From contig CALAOT010000071.1 in NCBI GenBank assembly GCA_937889545.1, positions 1 through 64,000 on the forward strand: 64,000 nt of DNA, written 5' to 3'. Numbering within the stretch: the first letter of the stretch is position 1; each line of letters begins with the position of its first letter. A program made the translations under genes and the position numbers. Origin of the DNA: an uncultured Opitutaceae bacterium (GTDB taxonomy: Bacteria; Verrucomicrobiota; Verrucomicrobiia; Opitutales; Opitutaceae). The notes below the pieces were generated by a model. The model searched no databases and was not told the origin of the DNA. It saw only the letters and a program-made list of their open reading frames with translations. This document shows, one piece after another, positions 52 to 6,709 of this stretch.

Positions 52-665
52 GCGGCAACGCGGCCAGGGCCGAGACAAGGGCTGCCCTGGGGGGCGCCGG
101 GCGGCGGGCGACGGCGAACGATTCGGACTATGTCTTCATCACCTTCATCCTGGATTACCTGCCCCACGGGCTGATCGGCCTGCTTGTAACGGCCTTTTTC
201 GCCGCCGCGCTGTCCTCCAAGTCGGGCGAGCTAAACGCCCTCGGCTCCACGACGACCGTCGACATCTACCGCCACATCATCAGGCGCGAGGCGACCGACG
301 CGCACTATGTGGCCGCCTCGAAGTGGTTCACGGCCCTCTGGGGCCTGGTTGCGATCGGCTTTGCGCTGTTCGCCAACCTGGCCGAGAACCTCATCCAGGC
401 CGTGAACATACTAGGCTCCATCTTCTACGGCGTCGTCCTGGGGCTTTTCCTCGTGGCCTTCTTCCTCAGGAGGGTCGGCGGCACGGCGGTCTTCTGGGCC
501 GCCCTGGCCGCCCAGGGGCTGGTGTTCGCTCTCTATGCCGAGCTCAGCATATCCTACCTCTGGTACAACCTGATCGGATGCGCGGCCTGCGTGGCGTTCA
601 GCCTCGCTCTCCAGGCCGCGATCGGGGTCTCCGGCAGGGCCGGCGCGGCCCCCGCGAAGCCATGA
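3..665 (+). CDS. Sodium:solute symporter (SSS family), C-terminal part
   Basis: The frame is open from base 3 and lacks its start, so only about the last 220 codons are present. After an Ala/Arg-rich loop it reads NDSDYVFITFILDYLP, then a hydrophobic segment with AAALSSKSGELNAL and STTTVDIYRHI. This is the conserved SSS-family stretch in which transmembrane segments flank a small-residue SS.xGELNA motif. Further hydrophobic helices follow to the C-terminus. Members import sugars, acids or other solutes with sodium through the inner membrane; the substrate here cannot be read. The stop overlaps the next start (ATGA at 662-665), so it is probably co-transcribed with the bacillithiol genes. The first 50 bases may be artefactual. 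Confidence 0.85.
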   Translation, partial: SWAASAARAASEAAHERGNAARAETRAALGGAGRRATANDSDYVFITFILDYLPHGLIGLLVTAFFAAALSSKSGELNALGSTTTVDIYRHIIRREATDAHYVAASKWFTALWGLVAIGFALFANLAENLIQAVNILGSIFYGVVLGLFLVAFFLRRVGGTAVFWAALAAQGLVFALYAELSISYLWYNLIGCAACVAFSLALQAAIGVSGRAGAAPAKP

Positions 666-1438
666 CGCAGCCGCCCGTCATCTGCTTCGGCCAGCAGCCT
701 TGCGGTTTCTTCCCGCGGCGCTTCCTGGCCGCGAAGATCGTCACGGCCAGGCGCCTCCAGGCCGAGCTCGGCGGCGAGATCGTCTTCTTCTACCACGACA
801 GCGACCACGACCCGCGCGAGACCCAGACCACGTTCCGTGACCGCAAGACCGGCAAGCCGCACACGCTGAACTTCGCATTCGAGAACAGGCTCCAGCGCAA
901 GTTCTCCCCGCTCTACGCGAAGCGGATTCCCGCCGGCTGGCGCGAGAAGACGGCCCGCCAGCTTCCCGCCTACGTCGATTTGCGCTGGGTCGAGGAGTTC
1001 AAGCAGGTGGCGGCGGCAAACGCGGCCGACTTCTGCCTGGAGATGTACCGCCGGATGGGGCTCCTCGGTGGGATTCGCGTCGCGCGCTCCGGCGACGCCG
1101 CGCTGCGGCGCCTGGCATGCGACGTCCCCGAGTTCTTCGTGGATGTGCAGCATGAGGGCGAGGCGGTGCGGGCAAGATTCGTCGATGGCGCGTTGCAACT
1201 GCACGAGGGTGGGGCTTCATTCGTCACCCTGCCCCCCGTGCCCTTCGACAAGTCCCAGATCAGCCCCGCCCGCGACTCGCGCCTCCGCTGGATGCAATCG
1301 GTCGTGCACTGCACGCACTATGTCGTCGGCGCAGGCGAGAAGGTTTACCTGCGCCGCGAGGACGCGAGCGATGTCAGCTTTGTCGACCGCGACCCCATCG
1401 ACCGCTCGGATGAAGCCTACTGCGAAATCCCCGTTTGA
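662..1438 (+). CDS. Compact BshC-like protein, putative bacillithiol cysteine-adding enzyme
   Basis: A 258-residue protein. Its start ATG overlaps the symporter stop by 4 bp. The N-terminus has GQQ (10-12), Lys25 and SDHDPRE (47-53). These match the order and spacing of the GQQ...K...EDHD..E motifs near the front of BshC, the enzyme thought to attach cysteine to glucosaminyl-malate. Near the C-terminus, YVVGAGEKVY (220-229) resembles the BshC signature YVGGPxExxY, preceded by an SPxxxxR stretch like that of BshC. BshC is normally about 540 residues, so this would be a half-size version lacking the helical middle and C-terminal regions. It is followed directly by bshB and bshA. The assignment rests on motif order plus context; I see nothing else it resembles. 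Confidence 0.6.
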   Translation: MTQPPVICFGQQPCGFFPRRFLAAKIVTARRLQAELGGEIVFFYHDSDHDPRETQTTFRDRKTGKPHTLNFAFENRLQRKFSPLYAKRIPAGWREKTARQLPAYVDLRWVEEFKQVAAANAADFCLEMYRRMGLLGGIRVARSGDAALRRLACDVPEFFVDVQHEGEAVRARFVDGALQLHEGGASFVTLPPVPFDKSQISPARDSRLRWMQSVVHCTHYVVGAGEKVYLRREDASDVSFVDRDPIDRSDEAYCEIPV

Positions 1439-2148: not shown

Positions 2149-3294
2149 ATGGCATCCGAGCGGCCCCTGAGGATCGGCATAACCTGCTACCCGTCGGTCG
2201 GGGGCAGCGGCATCCTCGCCTCCGCCCTCGGTGAGGAGCTTGCCCGCCGCGGGCACGAGGCCCATTTCATCAGCTACGAGCGGCCGTTCCGTCTGCCCGC
2301 GGACGCCCCCCGGCTGTTTTTCCACCCCGTGGTGATCAACAGCTACGAGCTGTTCAAGTATCCCGACTACACGCTTCCGCTCTCGGTCAAGATGGCGGAG
2401 GTGAGCCGCGACCATGGCCTCGACGTCCTCCATGTCCACTATGCGGTCCCGCACGCCACGGCCGCGATTCTCGGGCAGTCGATGCTCCCGCCCGGCCAGA
2501 GGCCCCGCGTGGTGACGACCCTCCACGGCACGGATACCACGCTTCTCGGGCGCGATGCGGGCTACGGCCCGGCGATAACGTATGCCTTAGACCGCTCGGA
2601 TGCCGTGACGACCGTGTCCGCCTACCTGGAGCAGGAGACGCGGCAGCTGCTGTCGGTGAGGCGGCCGATAGACGTGATCCACAATTTCTTCGAACCCCAT
2701 AAGCCGCGGCGCTCGCGCGAGGAGGTGCGCCGAGAGCTGGGAGTCGGCAGGGAGGCCCTGTTGCTGCACTCGTCGAACCTTCGGGCCGTCAAGCGGATCG
2801 ACCTCCTGCTCGAGTGCTGCGCCCGCATCCGGCCGCGGGAGTCCTTCAAGCTCCTTGTCCTCGCGGGGGCCAGCTTTGCGCCGTTCATGGGCGACGTCCG
2901 CCGCCTTGGCCTCGAGGACCGCGTGATCGTGCGCGAGAACGTGACCGAGATTGAGGATTATCTGCAGGCGGCCGACATAGGGCTTTTCACCTCGGACATG
3001 GAAAGCTTCTGCCTGAGCATCCTCGAGGCGATGTGCTTCTCCTGCCCGAGCGTCGCGGCGGCGGTGGGCGGGATCCCCGAGGTGGTGGTGTCGGGCAGCT
3101 CGGGCCTGCTGGTCGCCCCGGGCGACGCGGACGCCTTCACGCGCGCCGTCGAATCATTGATCTGCGATCCCGCACGCCGGGCCGAGCTGGGCACGTCGGC
3201 CAGGCAACGAGCCCGCGAGCTGTTTTCGGCCGATGTGATCGTGACTCGGTATGAGGGCCTTTATCGCCGGGTCTGCGCCTTGGGCCGGGGCTAG
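2149..3294 (+). CDS. bshA: N-acetyl-alpha-D-glucosaminyl L-malate synthase BshA
   Basis: GT4-family retaining glycosyltransferase of 381 residues that joins GlcNAc from UDP-GlcNAc to L-malate, the first step of bacillithiol biosynthesis in the cytosol. The N-terminal Rossmann domain has ITCYPSVGGSG, the BshA form of the GG(S/T)G loop. HVHYAVPHA and TTLHGTDTTLLG are typical of BshA (HGTDIT-type motif). The C-terminal nucleotide-binding half has ESFCLSILEAMCFSCP, the E-x7-E motif of GT4 enzymes, followed by GGIPEVV. Length is as expected for the family (about 375-385). It starts one base after bshB ends. Confidence 0.92.
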   Translation: MASERPLRIGITCYPSVGGSGILASALGEELARRGHEAHFISYERPFRLPADAPRLFFHPVVINSYELFKYPDYTLPLSVKMAEVSRDHGLDVLHVHYAVPHATAAILGQSMLPPGQRPRVVTTLHGTDTTLLGRDAGYGPAITYALDRSDAVTTVSAYLEQETRQLLSVRRPIDVIHNFFEPHKPRRSREEVRRELGVGREALLLHSSNLRAVKRIDLLLECCARIRPRESFKLLVLAGASFAPFMGDVRRLGLEDRVIVRENVTEIEDYLQAADIGLFTSDMESFCLSILEAMCFSCPSVAAAVGGIPEVVVSGSSGLLVAPGDADAFTRAVESLICDPARRAELGTSARQRARELFSADVIVTRYEGLYRRVCALGRG

Positions 3295-3379: not shown

Positions 3380-3916
3380 TTACGGCTTGGCGGCCTGGGT
3401 CGTCGGGGCTGCCACTGCGCCCTGCGCCTCAACCCGGGCGGCTTCGGCGATCTTCTGGATCTTCGGCATCAGGTCTCTTTGCATGCTCGTAACATACGGC
3501 ATGATCTTCTGCATGATCTGGGGCTGCTTCTCGACCATCGACACTCCCTCGGGCGATTCATAGAAGGCCTTCATCGCCCTGAGCTCGGCCGGCGAGTAGA
3601 CCTCGGCGTAGATCACGTCCATCTTGTCCACGAGGCCCTTGGCCGCCTCAATCGAGAGCGCCATGACTTGGCTTGAGACCTTCGCCGCGGCCGCCTTCTG
3701 CTCGGGCGTCAAGTTCGCCGTGTTGAGACTCAATGACTGGGCGGCAATCTTCTGCATCTGGACGGACATCTGGTCGAACGCCCGGTCCGCATGCATGGAT
3801 TTGATGACCTGGTGGGCCAGCTCGATCTGGGCGGCGTCCGGCGCCGGGGCGGGCTCCGCCGCCCTTAGGAATGGGATCAGGGCGAGGCAGAGGACGAGGG
3901 GGGGGATTCTCTTCAT
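3380..3916 (-). CDS. DUF2059 secreted protein
   Basis: A 178-residue protein with an N-terminal signal peptide (MKRIPPLVLCLALIPFLRA, cleavage near residue 20). The body is helical and fits DUF2059: a repeated pattern around VIYAEVYSPAELRAMKAFYESPEGVSMVEKQPQIM, where AEL..M..FY.SP.G is the family signature. DUF2059 proteins are envelope proteins of unknown biochemical function. The gene converges on bshA across an 85-bp gap. The tail is rich in Ala, Pro and Thr. Confidence 0.8.
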   Translation of the reverse strand: MKRIPPLVLCLALIPFLRAAEPAPAPDAAQIELAHQVIKSMHADRAFDQMSVQMQKIAAQSLSLNTANLTPEQKAAAAKVSSQVMALSIEAAKGLVDKMDVIYAEVYSPAELRAMKAFYESPEGVSMVEKQPQIMQKIMPYVTSMQRDLMPKIQKIAEAARVEAQGAVAAPTTQAAKP

Positions 3917-4219: not shown

Positions 4220-4762
4220 ATGCCCGACGACGAAGATCCGCCCGTTCGACGCTTCGCGCTCAAGCCGAAGGAGATCACGCCCACCGAGACGGCCGCGCGC
4301 CCGGGCGACGGGACGGCGATCAGCGTCGAGCTGATTCACAGGCAGAACGAGATCGCCGCGCGACGACCGTCGCTGCGGAAAGGGGACGACCACCCTCAAT
4401 CCCCGCCCGGCGAGATGGGCGCGCCCGGGGGACGGGCCGGATTCGGGCCCAAGGAAATCACGCCCACCGAGATGGCCGCGCGCCCGGGCGACGGGACGGC
4501 GATCAGCGTCGAGCTGATTCACAGGCAGAACCGGATCGCCGGGGAAAGGCTGGGTCCGGAAATCATCGCGTTGCCGGCCAAGAGGAGGTCCAAGCGCACG
4601 CGCGACTTCATCCTGCTCGTGACCGTGGCGGGCGGCCTGGCGGGCGCCCTTGTGCTGCAGCTCCCGCGGACGCCGGGCACCCTGGTCATGTGGCTCGTCC
4701 TCGTCATCGTTGCCGCGATGCTGCTCGCATGGGTCATGTTTGGGGTGATGGATGACTACTGA
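4220..4762 (+). CDS. Hypothetical repeat protein with C-terminal membrane hairpin
   Basis: A 180-residue protein not assigned to a family. The start at 4220 is chosen because of a GGAG site seven bases upstream; the longer frame upstream has no such signal. The soluble part contains two almost identical 30-residue units (KEITPTE.AARPGDGTAISV then ELIHRQN.IA), 61 residues apart. After a basic stretch (KRRSKRTRD) come two hydrophobic helices near residues 130-175. The layout suggests a cytoplasmic tail anchored by a helical hairpin. It overlaps the methyltransferase start by 11 bp. The function is unknown. Confidence 0.7.
   Translation: MPDDEDPPVRRFALKPKEITPTETAARPGDGTAISVELIHRQNEIAARRPSLRKGDDHPQSPPGEMGAPGGRAGFGPKEITPTEMAARPGDGTAISVELIHRQNRIAGERLGPEIIALPAKRRSKRTRDFILLVTVAGGLAGALVLQLPRTPGTLVMWLVLVIVAAMLLAWVMFGVMDDY
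4268..4358 (+). repeat. Intragenic direct repeat, copy 1
   Basis: This 91-bp unit recurs at 4451-4541 with only about four mismatches. The 183-bp period is a multiple of three, so the protein frame is kept. Near identity at the DNA level, including third codon positions, implies a recent duplication or ongoing conversion. Confidence 0.9.
4451..4541 (+). repeat. Intragenic direct repeat, copy 2
   Basis: Second copy of the 91-bp unit at 4268-4358. It is in the same frame and encodes the same KEITPTE...ELIHRQN segment with Thr to Met and Glu to Arg changes. Confidence 0.9.
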
Positions 4763-5736: not shown

Positions 5737-5753
5737 CGATCACGAAGTGATCG
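5737..5753. promoter_or_regulatory. Palindrome upstream of prpB, candidate operator
   Basis: CGATCAC-GAA-GTGATCG is a perfect palindrome with 7-bp arms and a 3-bp centre. It lies about 50 bp ahead of the prpB start, in the only gap before the operon. The size suits a dimeric regulator site. No regulator gene lies nearby, and the role is inferred from position only. Confidence 0.4.
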
Positions 5754-5803
5754 CTGCGGTAGCCCAAACATGCTACGAGCGCGCACTAGATATCCCCATC
5801 CCC

Positions 5804-6709
5804 ATGCCGTCCCAACCCCGCACCCCGGGCGCGCGCCTGCGCTCCGCGCTCAAGGCCGAACGACCCCTTCAGGTCGTCGGAACGATAAACGCATACTGCG
5901 CCCTGCTCGCCCAGCGCGCCGGGTACCGGGCGATCTACCTCTCCGGGGGAGGGGTTGCCAACGCCTCCCACGGGCTGCCCGACCTCGGGATCACAAGCCT
6001 CAACGAGGTGTGCGAGGACATCCGGAGGATCACGCAGGCCACCGACCTTCCCCTACTGGTCGACGCCGACACGGGCTGGGGCGGGGAGTTCATGATCGAG
6101 CGCACGGTGAGGAAGATGACTCTTGCGGGCGCTGCGGGCTGCCACCTCGAGGACCAGGTCCATTCGAAGCGCTGCGGGCACAGGGAAGGAAAGCAGCTCG
6201 TGAGCTCCGCCGAGATGTGCGGCCGCATACAGGCGGCCGTCGGCGCGCGGACCGATCCGCATTTCCTGGTGATGGCCCGGACGGATTCGTATGCCTCCGA
6301 AGGCATCGGCGGGGCGGTTGCGCGGGCGCGGGCCTACGCCAAGGCCGGAGCCGACGCGATCTTCGGCGAGGCGCTGACCTCCCTCGACGAATACCGCGCG
6401 TTCACGAAGGCGCTCGGCAAGGTTCCGGTGCTCGCGAACCTTACGGAATTCGGAAAGACGCCGCTCTTCTCCCTCGAGGGGCTCAGGTCCGCCGGAGTTG
6501 CGATCGCGCTCTATCCCCTGGGAGCGTTCCGGGCGATGAGCCGGGCCGCCGAGAGGGTATACGCGGCGATCCGCAGGGAAGGCACCCAGAAATCCGTCGT
6601 CGGCGAGATGCAGACCCGCGCGGAGCTGTACGACGTCCTGGGCTACGAGGAATACGAGCGCAGGCTGGACCGCATGCTGGCTGCGCAGGAGGGAAGGGAC
6701 GAGAAATGA
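5804..6709 (+). CDS. prpB: Methylisocitrate lyase
   Basis: Cleaves 2-methylisocitrate to pyruvate and succinate, the last step of the methylcitrate cycle for propionate breakdown. The 301-residue length is normal. Seen are [18 protein letters not shown], the Mg-binding region VDADTGWGG, and the catalytic loop [11 protein letters not shown], where Cys is the general acid and KRCGH is the lyase signature. [13 protein letters not shown] follows, also typical. The ATG at 5804 (MPSQPRTPG) was preferred over an earlier in-frame start at 5747 because homologues begin shortly before GARLRSAL. No strong Shine-Dalgarno is visible. Its stop overlaps prpC by 4 bp. Confidence 0.92.

Follow-up and report, generated by a model that had tools for sequence, protein, structure and literature searches.

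The locus raises the question of whether a protein of 258 residues, encoded directly before bshB and bshA, can do the work of BshC, the presumed cysteine ligase of bacillithiol synthesis, whose length is 521 to 554 residues in the sequences that we compared. It lies in a stretch of 64,000 nucleotides, hereafter the window, taken from the very start of contig 71 in an uncultured Opitutaceae genome (4.33 Mb in 128 contigs, 92% complete). A 2018 survey places Verrucomicrobia among the lineages without a documented or predicted low-molecular-weight thiol and describes an ortholog search at 30% identity, an E value of 1e-20 and similar length (PMC6282198). A 2025 survey of 43 phyla used an E value of 1e-20, more than 80% coverage, more than 25% identity and similar length, and its main text contains no word beginning with Verrucomicrobi (PMC12719100). 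Under such filters, a half-size and strongly diverged ligase would probably be passed over.

We consider that the gene at 662 to 1438 (plus strand) probably encodes a minimal, stand-alone BshC-type ligase that would attach cysteine to GlcN-malate and yield bacillithiol or a very close relative; we put the probability of this reading at roughly 0.7. It draws on the open reading frame and its profiles, the modeled fold, the conservation of core residues and the order of the genes; in addition, no full BshC was detected, and the co-occurrence with BshA is strict across the genomes that we searched.

An earlier note on this DNA had placed the gene directly before bshB-bshA, and the overlapping run of genes on the plus strand confirms that position. 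The start codon (ATG, 662) shares four bases with the stop of the upstream open reading frame, the 3' part of an SSS (sodium:solute symporter) gene that is cut by the contig end (3 to 665; PF00474, E = 8.2e-14). The end of the half-size gene overlaps by 29 bases the start (ATG, 1410) of a gene for a bshB-like PIG-L deacetylase of 245 residues (1410 to 2147), and a single base separates the bshB stop from the start of bshA (2149 to 3294), which codes for an N-acetylglucosaminyl L-malate synthase of 381 residues. BshA scored 381.6 bits with TIGR03999 (cut-off 273.7) and matched the solved structures 2jjm, 3mbo and 5d00 at E values of 3.3e-81 or lower. The best solved match of the deacetylase was BshB1 (6p2t), and its TIGR04001 score of 127.5 bits lies under the cut-off of 182.5, indicating a member of the PIG-L/BshB family that is no equivalog by score.

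Several features around this run are recorded here for completeness. Positions 1 to 50 of the contig hold an inverted repeat of 17 bases with arms at 1 to 17 and 34 to 50, and the PF00474 match of the symporter begins only at about 111; together, these features may represent an assembly-edge artefact. Downstream of bshA, a gene on the minus strand (3380 to 3916) codes for a DUF2059 protein. The open reading frame at 4220 to 4762 codes for a small protein without a Pfam match, which contains two near-identical copies of PKEITPTE.AARPGDGTAISVELIHRQN, 61 residues apart, followed by a hydrophobic-looking end. Further downstream is a gene of the PEP_mutase/isocitrate-lyase family (5747 to 6709), followed by a frame that we take to be citrate-synthase-like; the two are perhaps a methylcitrate pair.

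All of the motifs that had been read in the 258 residues were found in the translation. GQQ (residues 10 to 12; 689 to 697) lies in the loop after strand 1 of the structural model and is invariant in 20 diverse half-size sequences and in five BshC proteins. Lys25 (734 to 736) stands at the same distance from GQQ as in BshC. SDHDPRE (residues 47 to 53; 800 to 820) provides Asp48, His49, Asp50 and Glu53, which correspond in the alignments to the invariant DHDxxE of BshC. Arg207 (1280 to 1282) has the spacing to the late motif that is found for an invariant arginine of BshC, and YVVGAGEKVY (residues 220 to 229; 1319 to 1348) includes Gly223, Glu226 and Tyr229, the invariant G..E..Y. These twelve positions, G10, Q11, Q12, K25, D48, H49, D50, E53, R207, G223, E226 and Y229, are all invariant in the 20 half-size sequences, and the invariant positions of the five BshC include, in the numbering of the BshC from locus L110, G88, Q89, Q90, K103, D132, H133, D134 and E137 and, in the late block, R320, G336, E339 and Y342. 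The spacings inside the blocks are equal in the two sets (15 residues from G to K, 5 from D to E, 16 from R to G and 6 from G to Y). The late motif follows the others in the BshC order, as proposed earlier: one spaced pattern, GQQ-x12-K ... DHDxxE ... R-x15-G-x2-E-x2-Y, derived from these same half-size and BshC alignments, fits 120 of 120 half-size sequences and the six full-length BshC read. A six-frame search of 132 sources (2.0 million residues) returned 131 segments with it.

The half-size sequences also have conserved residues of their own. Cys125, Cys217 and His219 are invariant in the 20 sequences and Cys14 nearly so, and none of the four matches an invariant column of the five BshC. 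As CysRS has a zinc site, we considered a similar one made of Cys14, Cys217 and His219; we leave it unclaimed, because Cys217 stands immediately ahead of a strand and is probably at a distance from the active edge.

The fold was predicted with AlphaFold2 from 73 sequences (pLDDT 94.3, pTM 0.91). A Foldseek search of the PDB with this model gave 900 matches at E <= 10 and a single one at E <= 0.001, 4wbd, the Bacillus subtilis BshC structure containing citrate and ADP (E = 5e-9, probability 1.00, TM 0.64 by query length); the match is a loose one, with an rmsd of 5.9 over 310 columns at 15% identity. The next matches were glutamyl- and tyrosyl-tRNA synthetases, at an E value of 6.5e-3 and weaker. 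CysRS was absent from the best 50 of the 900 matches, as was MshC, the enzyme with the matching chemistry in mycothiol synthesis, and inspection of the half-size sequence by eye showed neither a HIGH nor a KMSKS motif. The earlier note had allowed for another fold with chance motifs; BshC alone came up at E <= 0.001, and no other fold did. The model predicts for the half-size protein the Rossmann-like core fold of BshC.

Sequence evidence for kinship with BshC is thin and agrees with the fold. TIGR03998, the BshC family, was the only NCBIfam match of the window protein at E <= 10, with 11.4 bits (E = 0.11) against a curated cut-off of 265.8, and Pfam gave no match. Among 73 half-size members, seven matched TIGR03998 at E <= 10 (best E, 0.0037) and one matched PF10079 weakly (0.056). 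Searches of the PDB sequences with phmmer and hmmsearch returned no BshC, and we take the matches obtained for chance; the window protein had no match in plasmids and none in PADLOC. We then compared profiles with hhalign, using one alignment of the window protein with 72 of 76 references (L045, L049, L072 and L074 left out) and another of 20 half-size sequences, chosen by hand, with changes, from sequences listed for their low identity to one another. The BshC side comprised two proteins from Verrucomicrobiota and three from plasmid records, one each of Bacillus, Paenibacillus and Deinococcus. The larger alignment gave nothing significant against one single BshC. The 20 half-size sequences against the five BshC gave a P value of 7.9e-4 over the first motif block, and with L110 columns the second block scored 37.1 (P = 3.6e-4, probability 36.8%), so that significance emerged only once the profiles were diverse on both sides. 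In local mode, the only one used for this control, no score higher than 23.3 came from 100 column shuffles, and the reversed profile scored 13.2. A forced global alignment spanned BshC residues 79 to 404, with both motif blocks near register.

How much of BshC is missing can be read from these alignments. GQQ begins at residue 10 in the half-size protein versus 84 to 96 in the five BshC. Relative to the BshC of L110, about 78 residues are missing before GQQ and about 150 at the C-terminal end, and the core is shorter by about 35 residues in total, 6 between K and DHD and about 29 between DHDxxE and R. After the GxxExxY block, 29 residues remain in the half-size protein versus 179 in L110. The suggestion in the earlier note that about half of the protein had been lost holds only as a description of anatomy; the protein may have arisen by shortening of BshC or by an early separation from it. 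According to a 2015 review, the C-terminal coiled coil of BshC is needed for dimer formation (PMC4360819). A split BshC with its other half encoded elsewhere was considered and rejected: the coiled-coil family PF24850 had no match at E <= 10 in the window's own genome, and TIGR03998 had none at E <= 0.001 in any of 17 half-size genomes (see below). The protein thus has the core fold, as modeled, the core residues and the occurrence with BshA that are typical of BshC, and it falls short of the family score and lacks both the N-terminal segment (about 80 residues) and the coiled-coil (dimer) domain. As these last three were tested for and not found, we do not file it under BshC; we regard it as a distinct BshC-like family, most likely working like BshC.

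We collected 271 related stretches of the half-size gene. Among the best 80 of the 271, 79 are from Verrucomicrobia by record title, and one (L061) is labeled Phycisphaerales. A match was found in 28 of 57 near-kin genomes, own included: besides the genome itself, its genus accounts for 10, its family for another 16 and its order for 1 more, where the match is only a 36-residue piece. Conservation was calculated on 120 half-size sequences, obtained from 125 loci by a length and stop rule that removed three intact genes (L014, L048 and L090), a locus at the same place as L014 (L115) and a short piece (L028). Some genomes are present twice in this set under two locus numbers, and a related count gave 95 distinct sequences. 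Seventy-one of the 258 columns are at least 98% identical, although identity to the window protein drops to 53% in the most distant half-size sequences listed. dN/dS could be computed for one pair out of nine, at 0.10 (YN00) or 0.26 (NG86), the other eight being probably saturated.

These data bear on the suggestion that the gene is a decayed bshC remnant, or that its motifs arose by chance in an unrelated protein. The near-zero similarity by curated profiles speaks for such an origin. Against it stand the 271 related stretches with their strong conservation, together with the dN/dS value in the case of decay, as well as the confident model with BshC as its sole match at E <= 0.001 and the shuffle controls. 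The option of a decayed gene that the earlier note had kept is rejected on the 71 conserved columns, chance motifs are rejected on the fold match and the shuffles, and we regard both as extremely improbable.

The gene order found in the window is widely kept. Among the best 80 of the 271 related stretches, the half-size gene, bshB and bshA follow each other on one strand in 73 loci, an SSS symporter gene lies upstream of the half-size gene in 74, a large PIG-L protein is encoded in the island in 63, and the full run of large PIG-L, symporter, half-size gene, bshB and bshA is present in 58. Sixteen loci have no PIG-L match, and in 12 of these the upstream DNA is shorter than 5 kb. The three-gene run is missing in seven loci. 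In four of them (L061, L072, L083 and L092) the downstream DNA amounts to no more than 1.2 kb; a bshA match is absent from 5 kb at L039 and L049, and L067 lacks bshB. The run is kept in the distant members G093, which belongs to another family, and G269. No bshB stands between the half-size gene and bshA in G303, G320 or L067; G320 has a weaker BshB1-like gene elsewhere in its genome, and G303 has no BshB1 match at 1e-15. In G100 and G173, two Verrucomicrobiota genomes with a full BshC, bshC is followed by bshB and then bshA, and the half-size gene thus occupies the place of bshC in its phylum.

As for the other two genes of the island, the large PIG-L protein upstream of the symporter has about 850 residues (e.g., L029:618-3170), with PF02585 and a weak NPCBM_assoc match, and by its N terminus it is perhaps exported; the window's contig begins too late to show its gene. 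The nearest solved relatives of the symporter (3 to 665 in the window; L029:3043-4992) are sodium-coupled monocarboxylate and multivitamin transporters.

The distribution of the two forms was determined in one draw of 288 Verrucomicrobiota genomes, which we searched for full BshC, the half-size profile and BshA. Full BshC (TIGR03998) was found in two genomes, G100 and G173, and the half-size profile in 17. BshA (E <= 1e-60, all over the cut-off) was found in 19, which are exactly the 17 half-size genomes and the two with full BshC. None of the 288 genomes had both forms, and none had either form without BshA or BshA without either form. The hypergeometric probability of the co-occurrence with BshA is 1.5e-25 with genomes counted as independent and kinship uncorrected; the 17 half-size genomes belong to 12 genera, so that independent events are fewer. 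In the family of G100, a third member also has full BshC (3 of 3). A second, full-length bshC in the same genome would point away from a role of the half-size protein in the pathway, and the earlier note had named it as such; with PF10079 and TIGR03998, none was found in the 92% complete genome of the window. Together, these results suggest that a conserved half-size family, with core residues of BshC and its fold as predicted by the model, replaces the usual BshC in some Verrucomicrobiota. Within the family to which the window's genome belongs, genome G072 carries a BshB1-like gene (133 bits) on its own, without BshA and without either form of BshC.

The same distribution weighs on another explanation, that the half-size protein has the BshC fold without catalytic activity and acts as a binding or scaffold partner, while the true cysteine ligase belongs to another family and is encoded elsewhere. 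Class I-type folds have non-catalytic descendants, which makes such a fate conceivable, and the protein is half the size of BshC. Nevertheless, the positions of the BshC core are among its invariant ones, the either/or relation with full BshC is strict in the 288 genomes, and no full BshC was found in its own genome. We therefore consider this explanation improbable and retain that of a minimal ligase.

We next considered the partners of bacillithiol. YpdA and BrxA/BrxB were found over their cut-offs in the same 2 of 288 genomes, G100 and G173, and so was YtxJ among 30 genomes examined; none of these proteins was over its cut-off in the 17 half-size genomes. Below its cut-off of 339.9 bits, the YpdA profile matched in 287 of 288 genomes and in 14 of 14 controls. 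Among the matches listed, those of G093, G102, G032, G317 and G303 scored 96 to 151 bits, in open frames of at least 750 residues. Because G100 and G173 have similar matches (162 to 164 bits) beside their true YpdA, we take them for another flavoprotein. BshB1 was over its cut-off in G100 and G173 only, of 30 genomes, and in the 16 half-size genomes where BshB was found it remained under the equivalog cut-off. Of the 17 half-size genomes, three (G093, G102 and G317) have a glutathione synthetase (PF02955) over the cut-off and one (G189) has one under it; in the window's own genome none was found. This pattern argues against glutathione in most half-size genomes. The missing YpdA and BrxA/B suggest that the cluster may yield a bacillithiol relative, or that its product is recycled differently.

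It may thus be that the same BshC scaffold serves a different product, with another amino acid or with cysteine on a changed sugar-malate, giving a relative of bacillithiol with recycling enzymes of its own. This would be in keeping with YpdA, BrxA/B and YtxJ being confined, over their cut-offs, to the two full-BshC genomes, with the BshB scores, with the strong divergence of the ligase from BshC, and with the symporter and large PIG-L genes in the island (74 and 63 of the best 80 loci). However, BshA exceeds its equivalog cut-off in each of the 17 genomes and is close to the solved BshA structures, the core residues common to the half-size protein and BshC are retained, and a thiol can stay the same while its recycling enzymes are exchanged. 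We hold a different product to be rather unlikely. A related version, for which we allow a slightly better though still minor chance, is a thiol on the bacillithiol scaffold other than bacillithiol, with its own minimal ligase and with reductases other than YpdA and bacilliredoxins, the symporter and the large PIG-L protein taking part in uptake or turnover.

In the reading that we prefer, a minimal ligase for bacillithiol or a very close relative, BshA would join GlcNAc to L-malate and BshB would remove the acetyl group. The half-size protein would then be the catalyst that couples the carboxyl group of its substrate, cysteine, to the free amine of glucosaminyl-malate, presumably with ATP, to give the thiol product. 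The parts used would be the GQQ loop, Lys25, the DHDxxE loop after strand 2 and the R...GxxExxY end, and the protein would dispense with the N-terminal segment of BshC and with the C-terminal coiled coil through which BshC dimerizes.

The data suggest that some Verrucomicrobiota make a bacillithiol-type thiol after all. If this is true, part of the thiol gap in Verrucomicrobia closes, in a manner that can be tested in one isolate. The half-size protein would also be a natural minimal core for BshC, the 258 residues left being what the chemistry should need. The 2015 review states that BshC activity had never been shown in vitro and calls its mechanism unknown (PMC4360819). Within the open-access literature, which mostly leaves subscription journals outside, neither a short BshC nor bacillithiol in Opitutaceae was reported in the portions searched; PMC8261052 concerns mercury resistance and has no bearing on a half-size BshC.

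Among known systems, the closest is BshC itself (YllA; TIGR03998, PF10079 plus PF24850; 4wbd). The half-size protein resembles it in the Rossmann-type core as predicted, in the order of the motifs and the spacing inside their blocks, in the slot before bshB-bshA as in two full-BshC Verrucomicrobiota genomes, and in the either/or occurrence. It differs in lacking the N-terminal part and the coiled coil, in scoring far below the family cut-offs and in having conserved Cys and His residues of its own. Its resemblance in fold to class I synthetases (GluRS, TyrRS and kin; E >= 6.5e-3) is weak. Compared with the bacillithiol pathway of Bacillota, Bacteroidota and Deinococcota, the half-size genomes share a BshA over the cut-off, a BshB of the PIG-L type and the neighboring bshB and bshA genes, whereas their last enzyme is another one, YpdA, BrxA/B and YtxJ are missing over the cut-offs, and a symporter gene and a large PIG-L gene accompany the cluster in most loci.
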